From: Amoebophrya sp. AT5.2
Lineage: Eukaryota > Sar > Dinophyceae > Syndiniales > Amoebophryaceae
Length of the DNA stretch: 13,875 bases
Reading direction: 5' to 3'
Assembly: GCA_005223375.1 (NCBI GenBank)
Contig: RXOD01005476.1
Span: forward strand, 1-13,875
A program made the position numbers and the translations under genes. Below are positions 6,318 through 13,875 of this stretch, in pieces. The notes under the pieces are model-generated. The model was not told the DNA's origin and searched no databases. It saw nothing but the letters and a program-made list of their open reading frames with translations. Position 1 is the first letter of the stretch. The number at the start of each line of letters is the position of its first letter.

Positions 6318-7778
6318 ATGGCTGATCACCAGCAGCGCGAGCGCGGACCTCGTCTGCTGGTCCGTCGCGAACTGGACGGCGCTTTTTTTTCCGTATTCAG
6401 CGAAGACGAGACGGAAGCACTGCGCGGCGCCGCCGATACAATTTTGGTCCGGGACTTGAAGAAGGCGATCGCTAAGCAGTGGCAGGAAATGGGTTGCCGC
6501 GAGCCTTTCGAGTGGGAATGCGTCCAGGTGCTCGCCACGCAGGCCCGGGCGGTTGCCCAGGACATGGGGGCAATTCCGTTGCCTCTAACGCCGGGGCAGA
6601 TCATCGATCCCGAAGATGCAGCAGAAGCAGACCAGAGCGCGACAGTCTACCTCCCGCGAGTTTGCGCCGACATCGAGCGCATTCCACTCAATCACTTCGA
6701 GGCGGACGAGGTCGGGGTCAGCTTCGGCGTCAGGCTGTTCACCCCTTTCACTTCTCGCGCGCAGTTGATTGACGCGTGTCGCATCGCGCTGCAGAGCATG
6801 TGTCCCGATGCAGACGCTGCAGCGCGGCAAGCGATGGAAGAAGTGGAGTCGCTGCATGGCCCGCTCCGCATTTGGGATGTTTCCGCCGTCGCAGATCTGT
6901 CGAGGCTTTTTTGCTGCTTCGACCCCACTACCGCCTTCGACTCCTACCCCGCTGAGTGCGTCCGCTTTCTCGCCGCTGCAGATGGTCATGGTTTTGACCC
7001 CGACTTGTCCGGCTGGAATACTGCCGGGGTCACGAATATGCGAGCCATGTTTGCCGGGTGCTCGAGTTTTACTGGGACGAGCTTGGCCAGTTGGGATGTC
7101 ACGTCCGTGACGACGTTCGTGGACATGTTTACCGATTGTCTCGAAATTTCTGCTCGGCTCGACTGCTGGTCTACGTCGAGCTGCGAAAGTATGGAAGGGA
7201 TGTTTCACGACGCGAGAATCCGCAAACTGAGTTTGCGGGGCTGGGATTGCGCAAGCTGCACGTCTTTCGAAGGAATGTTTTCCAACTGCAGGCTGATGCA
7301 TCCGAAGGCGCTGCAGATCAGTTTCAAGAACACGGGCCGCGTCGAGGACATGTCCCAGATGTTCGCCTACCTCACCTTCCACCCGGAGGACGAGGAGGAC
7401 CCGGAGGACGAGGACGACGAGGGCGACGCATCCGATCCCGGTGGCTGGCTGCTTGCTCTCCTTTCCGACTGGGACATTAGCGCCCTCGAAGTTGCAGATG
7501 ATATGTTTGCGGGTAGAATGCCGGACGAGTTCGGAGCTCATGCCGTGCAGCGTCTGCGCGAGGAGGGTTGGCCGACGGACGAAATGTTTTATGATGGAGG
7601 AGGCGCTAAATCTAAAAGCGGCTCCTCTACTTCCTCCGACAGCAGTGACGACGACGGCAGCGAAGAGGAGGAACAAGAAAGCAGCGCCGGCAGCGACGAC
7701 GGTGCTGAGAATAGCCAAGGGCGCCGGCTGGAAGCAGGAGGCGACGGCGTGGATGACGTCGCTGGCAGTGGCAGCTGA
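6318..7778 (+). CDS. DUF285 / BspA-type repeat protein with acidic tail
   Basis: The open frame extends upstream to a TTG at 6066, but the only usable first ATG is 6318, giving 486 residues to TGA. Residues 1-180 are a mixed globular region of unknown type, with a strand-like LLVRRELDGAFFSVF start and an EALRGAADTILVRDLKKAI helix. From about 184 to 400 the protein carries degenerate repeats of roughly 25 residues with the DUF285 pattern: W-D/N, a small hydrophobic pair, then M and F. Examples are IWDVSAVADLSRLF (185-198), GWNTAGVTNMRAMF (232-245), SWDVTSVTTFVDMF (258-271), CWSTSSCESMEGMF (283-296), GWDCASCTSFEGMF (308-321) and DWDISALEVADDMF (384-397). Residues 356-374 and 430-486 are very acidic and Ser-rich. 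The repeats are leucine-rich-repeat-like surfaces common in mycoplasmas, bacteria and many marine protists. Function is unknown. No signal peptide is visible, so a cytoplasmic or nuclear binding role is possible. Confidence 0.82.
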   Translation: MADHQQRERGPRLLVRRELDGAFFSVFSEDETEALRGAADTILVRDLKKAIAKQWQEMGCREPFEWECVQVLATQARAVAQDMGAIPLPLTPGQIIDPEDAAEADQSATVYLPRVCADIERIPLNHFEADEVGVSFGVRLFTPFTSRAQLIDACRIALQSMCPDADAAARQAMEEVESLHGPLRIWDVSAVADLSRLFCCFDPTTAFDSYPAECVRFLAAADGHGFDPDLSGWNTAGVTNMRAMFAGCSSFTGTSLASWDVTSVTTFVDMFTDCLEISARLDCWSTSSCESMEGMFHDARIRKLSLRGWDCASCTSFEGMFSNCRLMHPKALQISFKNTGRVEDMSQMFAYLTFHPEDEEDPEDEDDEGDASDPGGWLLALLSDWDISALEVADDMFAGRMPDEFGAHAVQRLREEGWPTDEMFYDGGGAKSKSGSSTSSDSSDDDGSEEEEQESSAGSDDGAENSQGRRLEAGGDGVDDVAGSGS

Positions 7779-9292: not shown

Positions 9293-11068
9293 ATGGAAGC
9301 TGCGTGCACCAACTGTAAAAAAGCAGTATCCCAATTCGTGCGGCATCACCTTCACCGCGTCGCCGTCCCGGCGTACCAATCACAATCAGCGCGGCCGTAT
9401 CTACAGACCTTTCGTCCTGGTTTCTTCGTCGGCCGGTCACGACCGATAACCTTCACCACAACCCCCACAACCACGGCAACAGCACGTGCTACTCCTACTC
9501 CTAGTGCAGCACAGCGAAGAAGAACGAAGATGACTGCAGCAGCGACATCGCTGTTGTGCGCGCCTCCGAAGAGCTGCGTCGTGAAGACGCATCAGAAGTC
9601 GATCTACTGTCAGACGCAGGTGGACGCGGACTTCGTAAATTTTACGATAGGTCAACCCACGCCGCGGCTCCTGCCGCTGGAGGAGCTGCGTTCCAGCCTG
9701 AGTGTCCAGCTTGATGCGGAGAACGCGGACCCGCTCATGATTCAGTACGGGGGCACGAGCACGCAGCTGGACGTTTTGGCAAGGTGGCTCGCAAAAAAGC
9801 TGGAGATGGAAGTCGCGTGCAGCGAGCTCATTCTGACGAACGGGAACTCGCACGGGATACAGTTTGCGGCGCGCGCCCTGTGCGCGCCCGGGGATTCGCT
9901 GCTGATGGACGACCCGACGTACTTCCTGGTGGGAGACATATTGCAGAGCCACTGCAAGGTCGCGGTGCTGCCGTGCACAGTGAGTGAAGATTTCACGTCG
10001 GAGTCGGACGAGTCCGTGGTCCAGAGGACAAGTCTAACTGCCGGGATGACTCGATTTGTCGACGCGCTGGAAGCCTACCTGGAGGACGACTCGAAACCGA
10101 AGCCCAAGGCGATCTACACCATTCCGGTGCACCACAATCCGACCGCCGGGTCCTTCTCCGTGGCCGCTGCGAAAAAACTGGTTGCCCTGGCGCAGAAATA
10201 CAACTTCTACATTTTTGCGGACGAGCCGTATGTGTTGCTGAATCACGAGCTCCAGCAGGGGGTCGAGAAGAATAAAAACAGGGAAGTCGGCGGATCATTG
10301 CCAGACGATCTGCAGCCCATCCGCACTTCACTTCGCTACTACGACATAGTCACCGACGAGCAGAACAGGACGACGCCAGGTAGGCACGTGATCAGCATGG
10401 GTTCTTTTTCCAAGATTATCGCGCCTGGATTGCGCCTTGGCTGGCTCCATGCGCACGCGGATGTAGTTGCGAACCACTTCACAAAGGACCCCGTGATTGC
10501 GTCAGGAGGTGGCGTCAACCCGGTCTCCTCCCTTACGGTCTTGCACATGATTCAGGCGGGGACGCTGGACAGCTACCTGAACAAGATTAACAAGATCTAC
10601 ACTGAACGTGCGCGCGCGCTGTGCGCAGCCCTCAGGAGCTGTTTCGGAGAAGGCCGAGTCGAATTCGCGGAGCCAACGGGAGGTTACTTCCTGTGGTTGC
10701 GGTTTTTGGAGCCACGGGATTTCAACACAAAAAAGTTTCACGAATTTGTTATGGCGCGGAAAGAGAAGTACGGGGTGAGTTTCTTACCCGGGAGGAGATG
10801 CGCGGTGCAGTTGAAGATGGGAGCGAACCATGAGGCTGCTTCGATGGTGACGGATTCCGCCGCGGCTCCAGAGGATATCGTATCCATAGCCCGACCCGAT
10901 GAAGGTGAAGGTGGACGACATCGATTTGACTCGCACATACGCATGAGTTGGGCTTTCTTTGAAGTAGAGGAATTAGAGGAAGGCGTTCGCAGACTGTACC
11001 ACGCATATTCGGACTTTAATGAGATGAACACGGACCATGGCCAAGCAACTGCACTACCGCAAGCATAA
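9293..11068 (+). CDS. PLP-dependent aminotransferase, class I/II (fold type I)
   Basis: Single frame of 591 residues from ATG 9293 to TAA. Landmarks of the fold appear in order: DDPTY at 206-210, HNPTAGSF at 281-288 (the Asn that contacts PLP O3'), ADEPY at 309-313 (Asp310 to the PLP ring nitrogen, Tyr313), SMGSFSKIIAPGLRLGW at 368-384 with Lys374 as the PLP lysine, GGGVNP at 405-410, and IRMSWAFFE at 549-557 with Arg550 placed to hold the substrate carboxylate. The set resembles the multi-substrate group that includes 2-aminoadipate/aromatic aminotransferases and fungal YER152C-type proteins; substrate cannot be read from sequence. The first ~80 residues are rich in Arg, Ser and Thr with one acidic residue, like a mitochondrial presequence. 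A second in-frame ATG at 9530 (residue 80) would yield a shorter, possibly cytosolic form. An acidic insert at about 510-545 separates the last strands. Confidence 0.9.
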   Translation: MEAACTNCKKAVSQFVRHHLHRVAVPAYQSQSARPYLQTFRPGFFVGRSRPITFTTTPTTTATARATPTPSAAQRRRTKMTAAATSLLCAPPKSCVVKTHQKSIYCQTQVDADFVNFTIGQPTPRLLPLEELRSSLSVQLDAENADPLMIQYGGTSTQLDVLARWLAKKLEMEVACSELILTNGNSHGIQFAARALCAPGDSLLMDDPTYFLVGDILQSHCKVAVLPCTVSEDFTSESDESVVQRTSLTAGMTRFVDALEAYLEDDSKPKPKAIYTIPVHHNPTAGSFSVAAAKKLVALAQKYNFYIFADEPYVLLNHELQQGVEKNKNREVGGSLPDDLQPIRTSLRYYDIVTDEQNRTTPGRHVISMGSFSKIIAPGLRLGWLHAHADVVANHFTKDPVIASGGGVNPVSSLTVLHMIQAGTLDSYLNKINKIYTERARALCAALRSCFGEGRVEFAEPTGGYFLWLRFLEPRDFNTKKFHEFVMARKEKYGVSFLPGRRCAVQLKMGANHEAASMVTDSAAAPEDIVSIARPDEGEGGRHRFDSHIRMSWAFFEVEELEEGVRRLYHAYSDFNEMNTDHGQATALPQA

Positions 11069-11193
11069 TTCGACTTTCCGTTTCCTCGAAGGAAAGGTAC
11101 GCACTGGCCACAGAAACTTCGTTGCCGTTGTCGCTGTCTTTCTTTACTTGCGCTAGAGGTGGTCGCTCGTGAATAGGGGATGTGACTGTAACA

Positions 11194-11213
11194 ATGAAGA
11201 TGAACATCTTCAT
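11194..11213. repeat. Perfect 9-bp inverted repeat with 2-base spacer
   Basis: ATGAAGATG is followed by AA and then CATCTTCAT, a perfect palindromic arrangement. It lies 126 bases past the aminotransferase stop and 120 bases before the next ATG. It could be a protein-binding operator-like site or an RNA hairpin in a UTR; either is inference. Confidence 0.6.
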
Positions 11214-11228
11214 GCGTTGATGCCGCGA

Positions 11229-11237
11229 CTTTTTCAG
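11229..11237 (+). promoter_or_regulatory. Candidate splice acceptor upstream of the amidotransferase gene
   Basis: CTTTTTCAG after GCGA forms a short pyrimidine-rich acceptor 96 bases before the ATG at 11333. It suits a 5' leader splice or spliced-leader addition, judged on shape only. Confidence 0.25.
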
Positions 11238-11332
11238 GAAGTGTAAACGAACGCGTCGCTGCGCAGCACTCAACAGGCAAAATAATAATAAAAAAAGAAA
11301 AACGCACTGACTTACTAAAACAAAGGGAGAAG

Positions 11333-11938
11333 ATGTGCTCGTTTTGGCTGACTACCGTTTTGCTTGCTCTGCGGACGCAGCTCGAGCATGTGAACTACCA
11401 TGCGGTAACTCGTGGTCCTGATCTCACTGCCGCGCTCGAATTCAATCAGTTCACCCTCGTGCACAACTTGCTCGCGATCACTACGGCCAATTCAGCGTCC
11501 TCTCCTGCGTCCGCGGCGGGAGAAGGGGCAGCGCGCTCTGCTCCCAGCATCGTCGAGGCTGGAGCGAAATATGTGATCGAGCCGCGTAGCAACGAACAGG
11601 TGAACAGCATTGATGCGGGCTCGGCGCTAGCGAACAGCCAGCCGATTTTTTTTGACGATGCGGCGCTTTTGTTCAACGGCGAGATCTACAATTACCGGGA
11701 TCTGCTGTACGAGCACCTTGCGCCTGACGAGGACCACGACAACATCATATCGGACGGAGGAAGCACAAAAAACAACAAGCCGACGTTGAACGAAGGCGAG
11801 GTTCTGATCCGGTTGTACCGACAACTGGGGGCGGAATTCGTGAAGCACCTCGACGGCGAGTTCGCGCTCGCTGTGCTGGATTTCCGGGAGAGAAAGTTGC
11901 TGTTTTCCGCGGACGTGTTCGGCACGAAGCCGCTGTGG
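11333..11938 (+). CDS. Asparagine-synthetase-like amidotransferase, exon 1 (glutaminase domain)
   Basis: Exon 1 encodes 202 residues from ATG 11333; read on without splicing it meets TGA at 11942-11944 after one more codon. It is an N-terminal class-II glutamine amidotransferase (Ntn) domain. Cys2 directly follows the start Met, as needed for the nucleophile that releases ammonia from glutamine. RGPD is at 27-30, FNGEIYNYRDL at 114-124, EGEVLIRLYRQLG at 154-166, DGEFALAVLD at 174-183 and FGTKPLW at 196-202, all in the order found in asparagine synthetase B. The start reads MCSF rather than the usual MCGI, so the conserved Gly after Cys is replaced by Ser. A low-complexity insert occupies about 52-105. 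Splicing to exon 2 gives FGTKPLW-YSLRDG, restoring the family's expected continuation. Coordinates of the 3' end can slide within the GTGGT repeat. Confidence 0.88.
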
Positions 11939-12350
11939 TTATGAACGGGATGCCTGGAGGTCGGTGCTAAGTAGAAAAGCTGAAGCGGAAGCACAACTCT
12001 TAAGAAAGTATTGGGTGGCGGGCGCGGGGGGTTCTGGGAGGTTGACACACCCCGCCTCCGCGCTCTGGCTCTACCCGGCGCGAAGGAGTCTGGGGCAGTT
12101 CAGAGATGCGCCATTTGCAGGAAGGGAACGCGGGATCATGGGCAACCTAGAGATCCTAAAGCGAAGCGTCAACGTCTATCAATCTAGAGAACAGAGGGGT
12201 GCTGTCGAGCTCGAGCCCTAGACTAGAACTCCAAGGACGGCAAAGGGCCGGCCGAAAGTACTGCTTCCGATCGACCAGCTATGCGATGATCAGCTTTCTG
12301 CGTAGTTCTTGACCATAACCTCTTAGCACCAGCAACCCCCGTCATGGTGG
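11939..12350 (+). mobile_element. Non-canonical, introner-like intron with terminal inverted repeats
   Basis: The 412-base intron splits the amidotransferase gene between Trp202 and Tyr203. GTGGT occurs at both boundaries (11935-11939 and 12347-12351), so the exact splice point can slide over six equivalent positions, and none gives GT-AG; the ends possible include GT-TG. One base inside each repeat are inverted ends. ATGAACGGG (11941-11949) matches the complement of CCCGTCAT (12338-12345) with one extra base. GGTGCTAAG (11963-11971) is perfectly complementary to CTTAGCACC (12322-12330), and AAAGCTGA (11976-11983) to TCAGCTTT (12290-12297). The reading frame before and after, and the protein motifs, demand removal. 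Target-site-like repeats plus inverted ends match introner elements described in Amoebophrya and some algae; membership in a family needs other copies. No transposase is encoded, as expected of a non-autonomous element. Confidence 0.85.
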
Positions 12351-13493
12351 TACTCGCTCCGGGATGGTATCCACATTGCTACGTACCGAAGCGTTTTGTC
12401 GCGGCTCGGGATACCGGACGGCGAGATTTTTCATGCGGAGCCGAATAAGTTCACCGTGTGCGACTTGGTGCGGCGGGAGGAAGGAGACCAGGTTCGAAAC
12501 AAGGACAGCACGCCAGACGCGAAATCTGGTGCATGGACGGCTTCGGATTGCGCATTGCACGCACTGCACGAATTCGACCTGCGGCAATGGAAGCGGGACA
12601 CGAACGACTTTGACCATGCATTCGAGCGGGCGGTGCACAAGCGCGTCCATGGCCCACCGGGGTCAAGGTTCATACGCGTCTTCATGGGCCTGAGCACAGG
12701 CTACGACTCTGGCGCGATCCACCTGGCGCTTGGGAAAATGCAGCGCGTGACGGGGATAATAAGTGGCAAAAGTAGAACCAATCATGATGACGCAGAAGAT
12801 GCTCGTTCGGTTGGCGACGAGGACGAGGACGTCACTGTTCAAACCGGCGCTCCTCGGGCGCCGCCTTGCCCCAGGATGCAGCTCACACCGCCATCATCAC
12901 TGCGTGTCTCCCGCTCCCCCAAAGTTGCACATCATCGTGGCAGAAAACGTGACGAACACCAAATGAAGCAGACGCACTTGAAAAATGCACCAGAACCAGA
13001 AGCCCGCGCTGCACTGGAGAAGCTGGATCCAGAGATCTACCCAGATCTCGCTCGGCTTCAATCGGCGGAAAACTCAGTCGGACTCAGGGAAGTTCACGTC
13101 GAGGAGGTGGAGGCACCAGAGGCAGACGGCGAGGGAGCAAAGACCGGCACCGGGAGTGAAGACCCGGCACCGCCCGCCCCCATCTCCACCAATTCTGCCG
13201 GCATTGCCGAGTCGTCCGCTCAGCTCGTTGGACGCGTCTTTCCGAACTCTTTCCGGCACTGCCTCTCTGGTGACGATTTCGTGGCCTACGTCGTCGTGGA
13301 CAGCCGGGACCGCGAGGTTCTCGAAGAGCGCGTCAAGTTCAACAACGTCCGCGTAACGCCAATTCTGAAGTCGTGGCGGAATTTTCGGCAGGAGGTGGCG
13401 GACATCAAAGCTGATACCGAAGCGTACGCGTACTCCGCGGAGAACTGGTACTACAAACAATTGCAGTTGCGTGTCTTTGTGCTTTTGGGTTAA
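12351..13493 (+). CDS. Asparagine-synthetase-like amidotransferase, exon 2 (synthetase domain, probably incomplete)
   Basis: Exon 2 joins in frame at Tyr203 and runs to TAA at 13491-13493, giving 582 residues in all with exon 1. It begins YSLRDGIHIATYRSVLSRLG, the end of the glutaminase domain and linker. AFERAVHKRV follows, then the ATP pyrophosphatase loop GLSTGYDSG at joined residues 315-323, where asparagine synthetases usually have SGGxDS. A charged, low-complexity insert spans about 340-505. The fold resumes with FVAYVVVDSRDREVLEERV. About 200 residues of the usual C-terminal half, including the second pyrophosphate-contacting motif, are missing. The last residues before the TAA look unlike the family, so a second intron probably starts near 13450-13493 and the rest lies beyond. 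It probably transfers glutamine-derived ammonia to an adenylated carboxylate. The product may be asparagine or another amide; the loop resembles a divergent algal/protist subgroup (from memory). Confidence 0.75.
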   Translation, partial: YSLRDGIHIATYRSVLSRLGIPDGEIFHAEPNKFTVCDLVRREEGDQVRNKDSTPDAKSGAWTASDCALHALHEFDLRQWKRDTNDFDHAFERAVHKRVHGPPGSRFIRVFMGLSTGYDSGAIHLALGKMQRVTGIISGKSRTNHDDAEDARSVGDEDEDVTVQTGAPRAPPCPRMQLTPPSSLRVSRSPKVAHHRGRKRDEHQMKQTHLKNAPEPEARAALEKLDPEIYPDLARLQSAENSVGLREVHVEEVEAPEADGEGAKTGTGSEDPAPPAPISTNSAGIAESSAQLVGRVFPNSFRHCLSGDDFVAYVVVDSRDREVLEERVKFNNVRVTPILKSWRNFRQEVADIKADTEAYAYSAENWYYKQLQLRVFVLLG

Positions 13494-13497
13494 TTAT

Positions 13498-13555
13498 CCA
13501 GCGTCTTGTTTCCCAGCGTCTTGTCTCTCGTTAAGTATCCAGCGTTATCCAACGT
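13498..13555. repeat. Degenerate short direct repeats (CCAGCGT units)
   Basis: CCAGCGTCTTGT occurs at 13498-13509 and again at 13513-13524. TATCCAGCGT at 13536-13545 is followed at once by TATCCAACGT at 13546-13555. The cluster starts 5 bases after the in-frame TAA of the amidotransferase frame. It may be the start of a second intron or a 3' UTR. Confidence 0.6.
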
Positions 13556-13579
13556 CGTATTCTTGTTTCTCGGTCGACC

Positions 13580-13875
13580 ATGGTTCTGAGAGCAGTTTTT
13601 CGACTTGTTTCCGCGCAGTCTGTACGGGAGTGCCCATTTTGGTGGTTCTCTTCCGAACGTCCAATGCTCGTCACAAAGTCGGTCAAGGTGCCAACAGACC
13701 TCGCACCATTTGTGCACTGTGTTTCGCCGCCTCGTCGTTCGCCGTTCTTCACGAACCGACACAACTGCCCAGGGCTGGCGGAAGCCTGCAGTTGGACGCG
13801 TCCGCGGCGCCGGGTATGCAGAGGAAATTTGTCCGTGTCCCGAAAAGTAGGCCCAGAAGTCTTCGGAGTCTTTGG
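13580..13875 (+). CDS. Open frame running off the window end, status uncertain
   Basis: An ATG at 13580 opens a frame of 98 codons with no stop before the window edge. It begins MVLRAVFRLVSAQSV, which resembles an amphipathic, Arg-containing organelle presequence, and continues Arg/Pro/Ser-rich with no motif I recognise. It starts only 86 bases after the TAA of the amidotransferase frame. Two minus-strand frames overlap part of the same stretch, so chance openness is a real possibility. It could be the first exon of a further gene, or lie inside an intron of the preceding gene. Confidence 0.2.
   Translation, partial: MVLRAVFRLVSAQSVRECPFWWFSSERPMLVTKSVKVPTDLAPFVHCVSPPRRSPFFTNRHNCPGLAEACSWTRPRRRVCRGNLSVSRKVGPEVFGVF

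Follow-up and report, generated by a model that had tools for sequence, protein, structure and literature searches.

A transposon-like introner family without GT-AG borders, apparently removed exactly in either orientation, interrupts an asparagine-synthetase-type gene of a probable Amoebophrya-lineage genome

In a 13,875-nt stretch of genomic DNA (the window; contig C1680 of an assembly of 50.7 Mb and 2759 contigs), we found an asparagine-synthetase-type gene split by a 407-nt element (11940-12346) that lies between two copies of GTGGT. We propose, with a probability of about 0.86, that this element is a non-autonomous DNA transposon turned introner of the Amoebophrya kind, which would persist through its exact removal from the transcript. 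The coding exon upstream (11333-11939; the ATG at 11333 is assumed to be the start codon, and this gene and its introns are given on the + strand) carries a GATase_7 domain (Pfam PF13537, E 4.8e-15), ends in ..VFGTKPLW plus a T (..GGC ACG AAG CCG CTG TGG T) and includes the 5' GTGGT (11935-11939), after which the element opens with TATGAACGGG. Coding resumes with AC TCG CTC CGG, 3' of CATG and the second GTGGT (12347-12351), in the downstream exon (12352-13461), and protein P0005 of Amoebophrya A25 matches the window at 12423-12758 and 13161-13475. Excision of 412 nt, that is of the element and one GTGGT, joins VFGTKPLW to YSLRDG in frame, as the initial annotation of this DNA had proposed, and the joined frame is free of stops over 1875 nt. 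The same annotation had placed GTGGT at both boundaries and had noted that GT-AG is absent at all six sliding positions; the first point is borne out by the sequence and by a finder that looks for a target-site duplication (TSD) together with element ends, and the second by the sequence, the six positions being GT..TG, TG..GG, GG..GT, GT..TG, TT..GG and TA..GT, and the element thus has neither the GT-AG nor the GC-AG borders of a canonical U2-type intron.

Homologous proteins read straight across this junction. With the same-organism model set aside, 119 were compared of the 120 listed among 210 matches, and 118 of them align over it. Among these listed matches, the K and P of VFGTKPLWYS are present in 118/118 and the F in 117/118, and residues 195-204 are ungapped in 98/118. 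The EukProt protein g3140.t1 (P0003), 100% identical to parts of the locus, spans window positions 9293-11944, fuses an aminotransferase to the asparagine-synthetase-like gene, its last residues being ..KPLWL, just within the element. This truncation and fusion are an annotation artefact for which the introner would account, and they serve as a warning that annotation limited to GT-AG fails on genomes of this type.

The element belongs to a repeat family. A genome search with the segment returned the segment itself and 19 other places, every one through a core of about 60 nt, and the core pattern, allowing up to 3 mismatches, has 97 matches in the genome against 1 for the reversed pattern. Of the 97 cores, 93 were examined: 57 sit in a full element that has TATG...CATA ends and is flanked by a 5-nt duplication (exact in 32, with one mismatch in 25, and with a single solution above the cut-off in each), and among the other 36, 2 lie too near a contig edge and 34, including the window's, gave no full element. 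When similarity between the terminal inverted repeats (TIRs) is ignored, an exact 5-nt duplication and TATG/CATA ends, with at most one mismatch over both ends together, surround 38 of the 93 cores, the window's included, and a control with the 5-mers taken one step further out gave 0. The 57 elements measure 249-615 nt and align over their full length with MAFFT, with a mean pairwise identity of 0.65 and a nearest-neighbour median of 0.75. Their core pattern begins 57-169 nt from one end (93-148 nt in 52 of 57), and this offset gives the elements a direction. The search for other copies, suggested in the initial annotation, therefore found that the inverted ends are not unique and that copies lie in genes with a TSD, the same ends and the core. 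Moreover, the exact TIR pattern has 274 matches in the genome, against 0 for its control. Among the 100 TIR matches listed of these 274, 14 have a contig start less than 400 nt away, and 10 of the 14 carry the variant GGACCAGCTGG; a young, high-copy GGACCAGCTGG subfamily is probably breaking the assembly. At another locus (L032, 545-973) we observed the family's ends and TSD with no match to the core pattern, so that the 97 core matches undercount the family. Searching by inverted ends yielded mostly chance ends until a TSD and TATG ends were required, and in the sampled loci other families with 12-nt near-perfect ends numbered 3, against 2 in the control.

With TIRs, TSDs, internal homology and multiple copies, the family has the make-up of a MITE or other non-autonomous TIR transposon, and it shares with Amoebophrya-type introners its non-GT-AG borders, a direct repeat of 3-5 nt and repetition in many genes. 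MITEs are short and non-coding, have TIRs and a TSD and occur in many copies, and in all of this the present family is like them; it is unlike them in that its removal from coding sequence is apparently exact, whichever way the element points. The comparison with MITEs was made by Farhat et al. (PMC7789003). Within the TIR consensus of the family, TGGTAAGT or a near copy occurs twice per end and resembles a consensus 5' splice site, with the complement ACTTACCA at the opposite end. GGTAAGT within the TIR was considered as the true 5' site and rejected, since it lies at different distances from the border (17 in L010, 19 in L020, 20 in L041 and 22 in L065) whereas exact removal keeps the frame.

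The copy in the window, which starts with TATG and ends with CATG where the family has CATA, is a diverged member of the family, recognised by its core, ends and TSD: its mean identity to the family is 0.55 and its nearest 0.62, and an HMM of the 57 elements finds a single match in the window, at 12060-12125 (E 1.1e-12), over the conserved internal core (GCGCTCTG..ACCCGGCGCGAAG..TTCAGAGATGC; 12060-12116). A stricter finder in which TIR similarity is also scored missed this copy, probably because of its gapped arms. The 5' arm (TATGAACGGG...GGTGCTAAG; 11940-11971) was recognised from inverted blocks, the arm test and the family TIR, and the 3' arm (12320-12346) from inverted blocks and the arm test. 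Three inverted blocks had been claimed initially, of which GGTGCTAAG/CTTAGCACC and AAAGCTGA/TCAGCTTT are exact, whereas the outermost, ATGAACGGG/CCCGTCAT, pairs only if one base is skipped. The exact blocks, of 9 nt and 8 nt, and the gapped TIR of the family agree with the 8-20 nt inverted repeats of introners, at p 0.057 for the arms alone: the two 60-nt arms are marginally better than shuffled ones, and the fold of the whole segment is no better than that of shuffles (z -0.21). What lifts the window element above chance is the family, with an exact 5-nt TSD and TATG/CATA ends around the same core. Rfam reported three microRNA models on the window, with E-values of 0.14 to 0.87, all scoring far under their cut-offs.

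We found further evidence for exact removal in the coding continuity around the copies. To score 180 nt of each flank separately for 58 elements (the 57 and the window's), we used a hexamer coding model from whose training the locus being scored was left out; 57 were scored, one lying at an edge, and with 10 more set apart for a weak flank, 47 were confident on both sides. Once the element and one duplicate are omitted, strand and frame agree in 40 of these 47, the window copy among them, and disagree in 7 (2 on the same strand in another frame, 5 on the other strand), as compared with a mean of 10.5 and a maximum of 23 agreements when flanks were swapped. Random positions in uninterrupted sequence served for comparison: 317 of 951 were confident, and the two sides agreed in 244 of the 317, so that the flanks of the elements behave as continuous DNA. 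Of the 39 other agreeing elements, 20 had their flanks scanned with Pfam; in 5 of these, the two flanks fall in a single family or in adjacent domains of one enzyme, with open frames on both sides. For clathrin (65|68 across L026, core sense) and myosin (481|487 across L088, antisense) the gap is crossed within about one residue, and urocanase (L077, core sense), DUF938 (L034, antisense) and LRR (L044, antisense) domains lie on both sides of their elements. The other 15 scanned copies share no family across the element, having matches on one side or none; L095 has different families on its two sides, one of them below the cut-off. The repeat family, the homologs over the junction and the 40 of 47 copies with coding continuity thus support, at the level of sequence, the transposon-like introner, target duplication and exact removal proposed in the initial annotation.

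Relative to the gene, the core is sense in 22 and antisense in 18 of the 40 agreeing copies. Since the core is asymmetric and marks which way each copy points, copies are apparently removed exactly both ways, and exact removal appears to be independent of orientation. Coding continuity alone is also expected from a recent, unspliced insertion, and we argue for removal from how many insertions lie in coding sequence whose frames are open, and from the age of the window copy. Removal either way round would constrain the mechanism, since strand-specific internal signals, 5' or 3', could not be essential, and symmetric ends or direct repeats would remain as candidates.

Pairing of the ends, which the initial annotation had suggested as an aid to splice-site recognition, gained no support. 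If the ends pair in RNA, differences between arms should show an excess of wobble-compatible changes; in 40 elements we counted 31 wobble-compatible against 39 incompatible differences over 26 nt, 47 against 72 over 45 nt and 74 against 81 over 60 nt, and saw no such excess (47 vs 72). In 38 elements, the two arms of one element resemble each other more than arms drawn from other elements at random (z 1.8 to 5.1, depending on the stretch), and compared with the arms of the three nearest relatives they are slightly but not clearly closer (p 0.08), a near-equality that points to shared descent as the explanation for most of the arm similarity. Over 92 cores, the core hairpin folds strongly (-30 kcal/mol, and -18 on the other strand), with few compensatory changes and many broken pairs. 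An essential RNA role of this hairpin in splicing is unlikely, since 18 of 40 genes have the core in antisense.

Under the reading we favour, a non-autonomous DNA transposon would have entered a coding exon, duplicating its 5-nt target GTGGT, and would have persisted as the transcript loses the element and one duplicate, exactly. Removal would take place on RNA, by a spliceosome that may be modified, and, as removal of such elements does not depend on which strand is transcribed, we infer a machine that reads symmetric ends and repeats with no directional GT...AG pair. We hypothesise, tentatively, an orientation-blind splicing in which inverted ends between short direct repeats are recognised and repeat is joined to repeat. 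If this were true, a transposon copy in either orientation would at once be a removable intron, and its splice sites would be set by the insertion itself, with no directional 5'/3' signals. U6 snRNA is present in the genome; searches for U1, U2 and U5, run without a positive control and with only the best candidates scored, were empty. According to Farhat et al., U2 was missed by BLAST of Amoebophrya genomes and transcripts were needed to find it (PMC7789003).

Among other explanations, we consider unlikely a spliceosome-independent removal guided by end pairing, like that proposed for the nonconventional introns of euglenids. Like the present elements, such introns lack GT-AG and have direct repeats and inverted ends, and for them, too, a MITE-like origin has been proposed (PMC4770533), but this route is at odds with the missing wobble-compatible excess (47 vs 72), with the nearest-relative comparison (p 0.08), and with the window's own arms (p 0.057) and lack of a fold signal. 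The segment could also be an ordinary GT-AG intron with ends nearby, since 8 GT-AG choices near the ends are in frame and stop-free, one of which (11915-12326) is also 412 nt long. That choice would however put other residues in place of VFGTKPLW, a motif with K and P conserved in 118/118 aligned homologs among the matches listed, and would leave the TSD, the TATG ends and the family unexplained, and the seven others cost 2 to 33 additional codons, all of which makes an ordinary intron hardly credible.

Elimination at the DNA level, as with the internal eliminated sequences of ciliates, the assembly then being a germline-like form, would fit the exact removal between short repeats, the symmetric ends and the orientation independence. 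We regard it as very improbable: the elements are present in the assembled genome, and we know of no case in this lineage. Furthermore, the comparable introns of A25 and A120 are supported by RNA-seq in the account of Farhat et al. (PMC7789003). Recent unspliced insertions or assembly artefacts, with the genes broken or heterozygous, are likewise most improbable. Some copies may indeed be young, considering the 14 of 100 listed TIR matches that lie near a contig start, and the EukProt model P0003 of the interrupted gene stops inside the element; but the window copy is diverged and its frame is nonetheless open, and in 5 of the 20 scanned copies the element lies in or between recognisable domains with both sides open.

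The transposon-derived introner is moreover not the only non-canonical intron of this gene. A second one, perhaps of a second kind, occupies 325 nt (13462-13786) between 8-nt direct repeats TGCAGTTG that start at 13462 and 13787; it has no clear inverted ends, GT-AG is found at none of its nine sliding positions, and its removal restores KQLQLDASAAPGISMLTRRG, colinear with A25. A short exon follows (13787-13814), ending in the TSD CCGGG, and then the left end of a third intron (13815-13875), in appearance a TATG introner from a different family, with another TIR (TATGCAnnGGAAATTTGTCC); the HMM of the 57 elements matches neither of its two pieces. Its right end (1-267 of locus L100) and the next exon are on contig C154 (C154:267, TSD CCGGG), to which the match with the A25 protein P0005 runs on from the end of the window; the assembly is broken inside this intron, and it is very likely that C1680 and C154 are neighbours in the genome. 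Excision of 13462-13786 and of 13815 to C154:267 with one CCGGG gives KQLQLDASAAPGISMLTRRGKNDGRRV, compared with KTLQLDYSAAQGISMLTRRGKDDGRRV in A25, and colinearity with Amoebophrya A25 is regained once introns 2 and 3 are removed. Each of the three introns seen in the gene, up to the start of C154, is thus non-canonical and lies between direct repeats.

Protein evidence places the host in the Amoebophrya lineage, the best matches of the neighbouring aminotransferase, after the same-organism model, being Amoebophrya A120 (52% over 96%) and A25 (39% over 94%). The G+C content of the sampled loci, 56.3%, fits none of the four published Amoebophrya genomes, for which the A+T row of a published table gives a G+C of 34.8 to 51.2% (PMC12005148), and the host is probably a further species of this lineage, judging from these sequence comparisons. 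In 2021, Farhat et al. described from A25 and A120 non-canonical introns as well as introners that carry inverted and direct repeats (PMC7789003), and a 2025 genome paper considers such introns to be restricted to part of the genus (PMC12005148). Like those introners, the present family is repeated, lacks GT-AG and a transposase inside, and has direct repeats of 3-5 nt across its borders and inverted ends of 8-20 nt, and the A120 repeats also begin with TAT (PMC7789003). It differs in having its own TIR (approximately TATGRNSGGRCCAGGTGGTAAGTGG, where the A120 repeats consist of TAT, seven less conserved bases and then As), a 5-nt duplication directly outside the TIR and a conserved internal core (PMC7789003), and we regard it as a new family of introners of the Amoebophrya kind.

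Introners of other eukaryotes likewise insert as DNA transposons do, with a TSD and TIRs (Gozashti et al. 2022, PMC9860276). The search for those started from annotated introns, and their splice sites are carried or co-opted, whereas here the border is without GT-AG. Euglenid and diplonemid nonconventional introns are similar in that their borders vary, they have direct repeats and inverted ends, their positions are mobile and an origin from MITEs has been proposed, but they belong to a different lineage and have a stable end-pairing structure, while pairing is unsupported here (PMC4770533, PMC6221363). That introners insert either way round is stated by a review, with reference to Huff et al. 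2016 (PMC10228655). Full-text searches of open-access papers brought up neither an account of this family nor one of non-GT-AG introners being removed independently of orientation, and the relevant passages of a dinoflagellate review (PMC11453091) and of a paper on tunicate splicing (PMC13326754) add nothing on this family. Our results extend the strange introns of A25 and A120 to an apparently further species, and the orientation result sharpens the question of how non-canonical introns are recognised. Elsewhere in the window, at 6318-7778, lies a gene with a DUF285 domain (E 7.2e-29).
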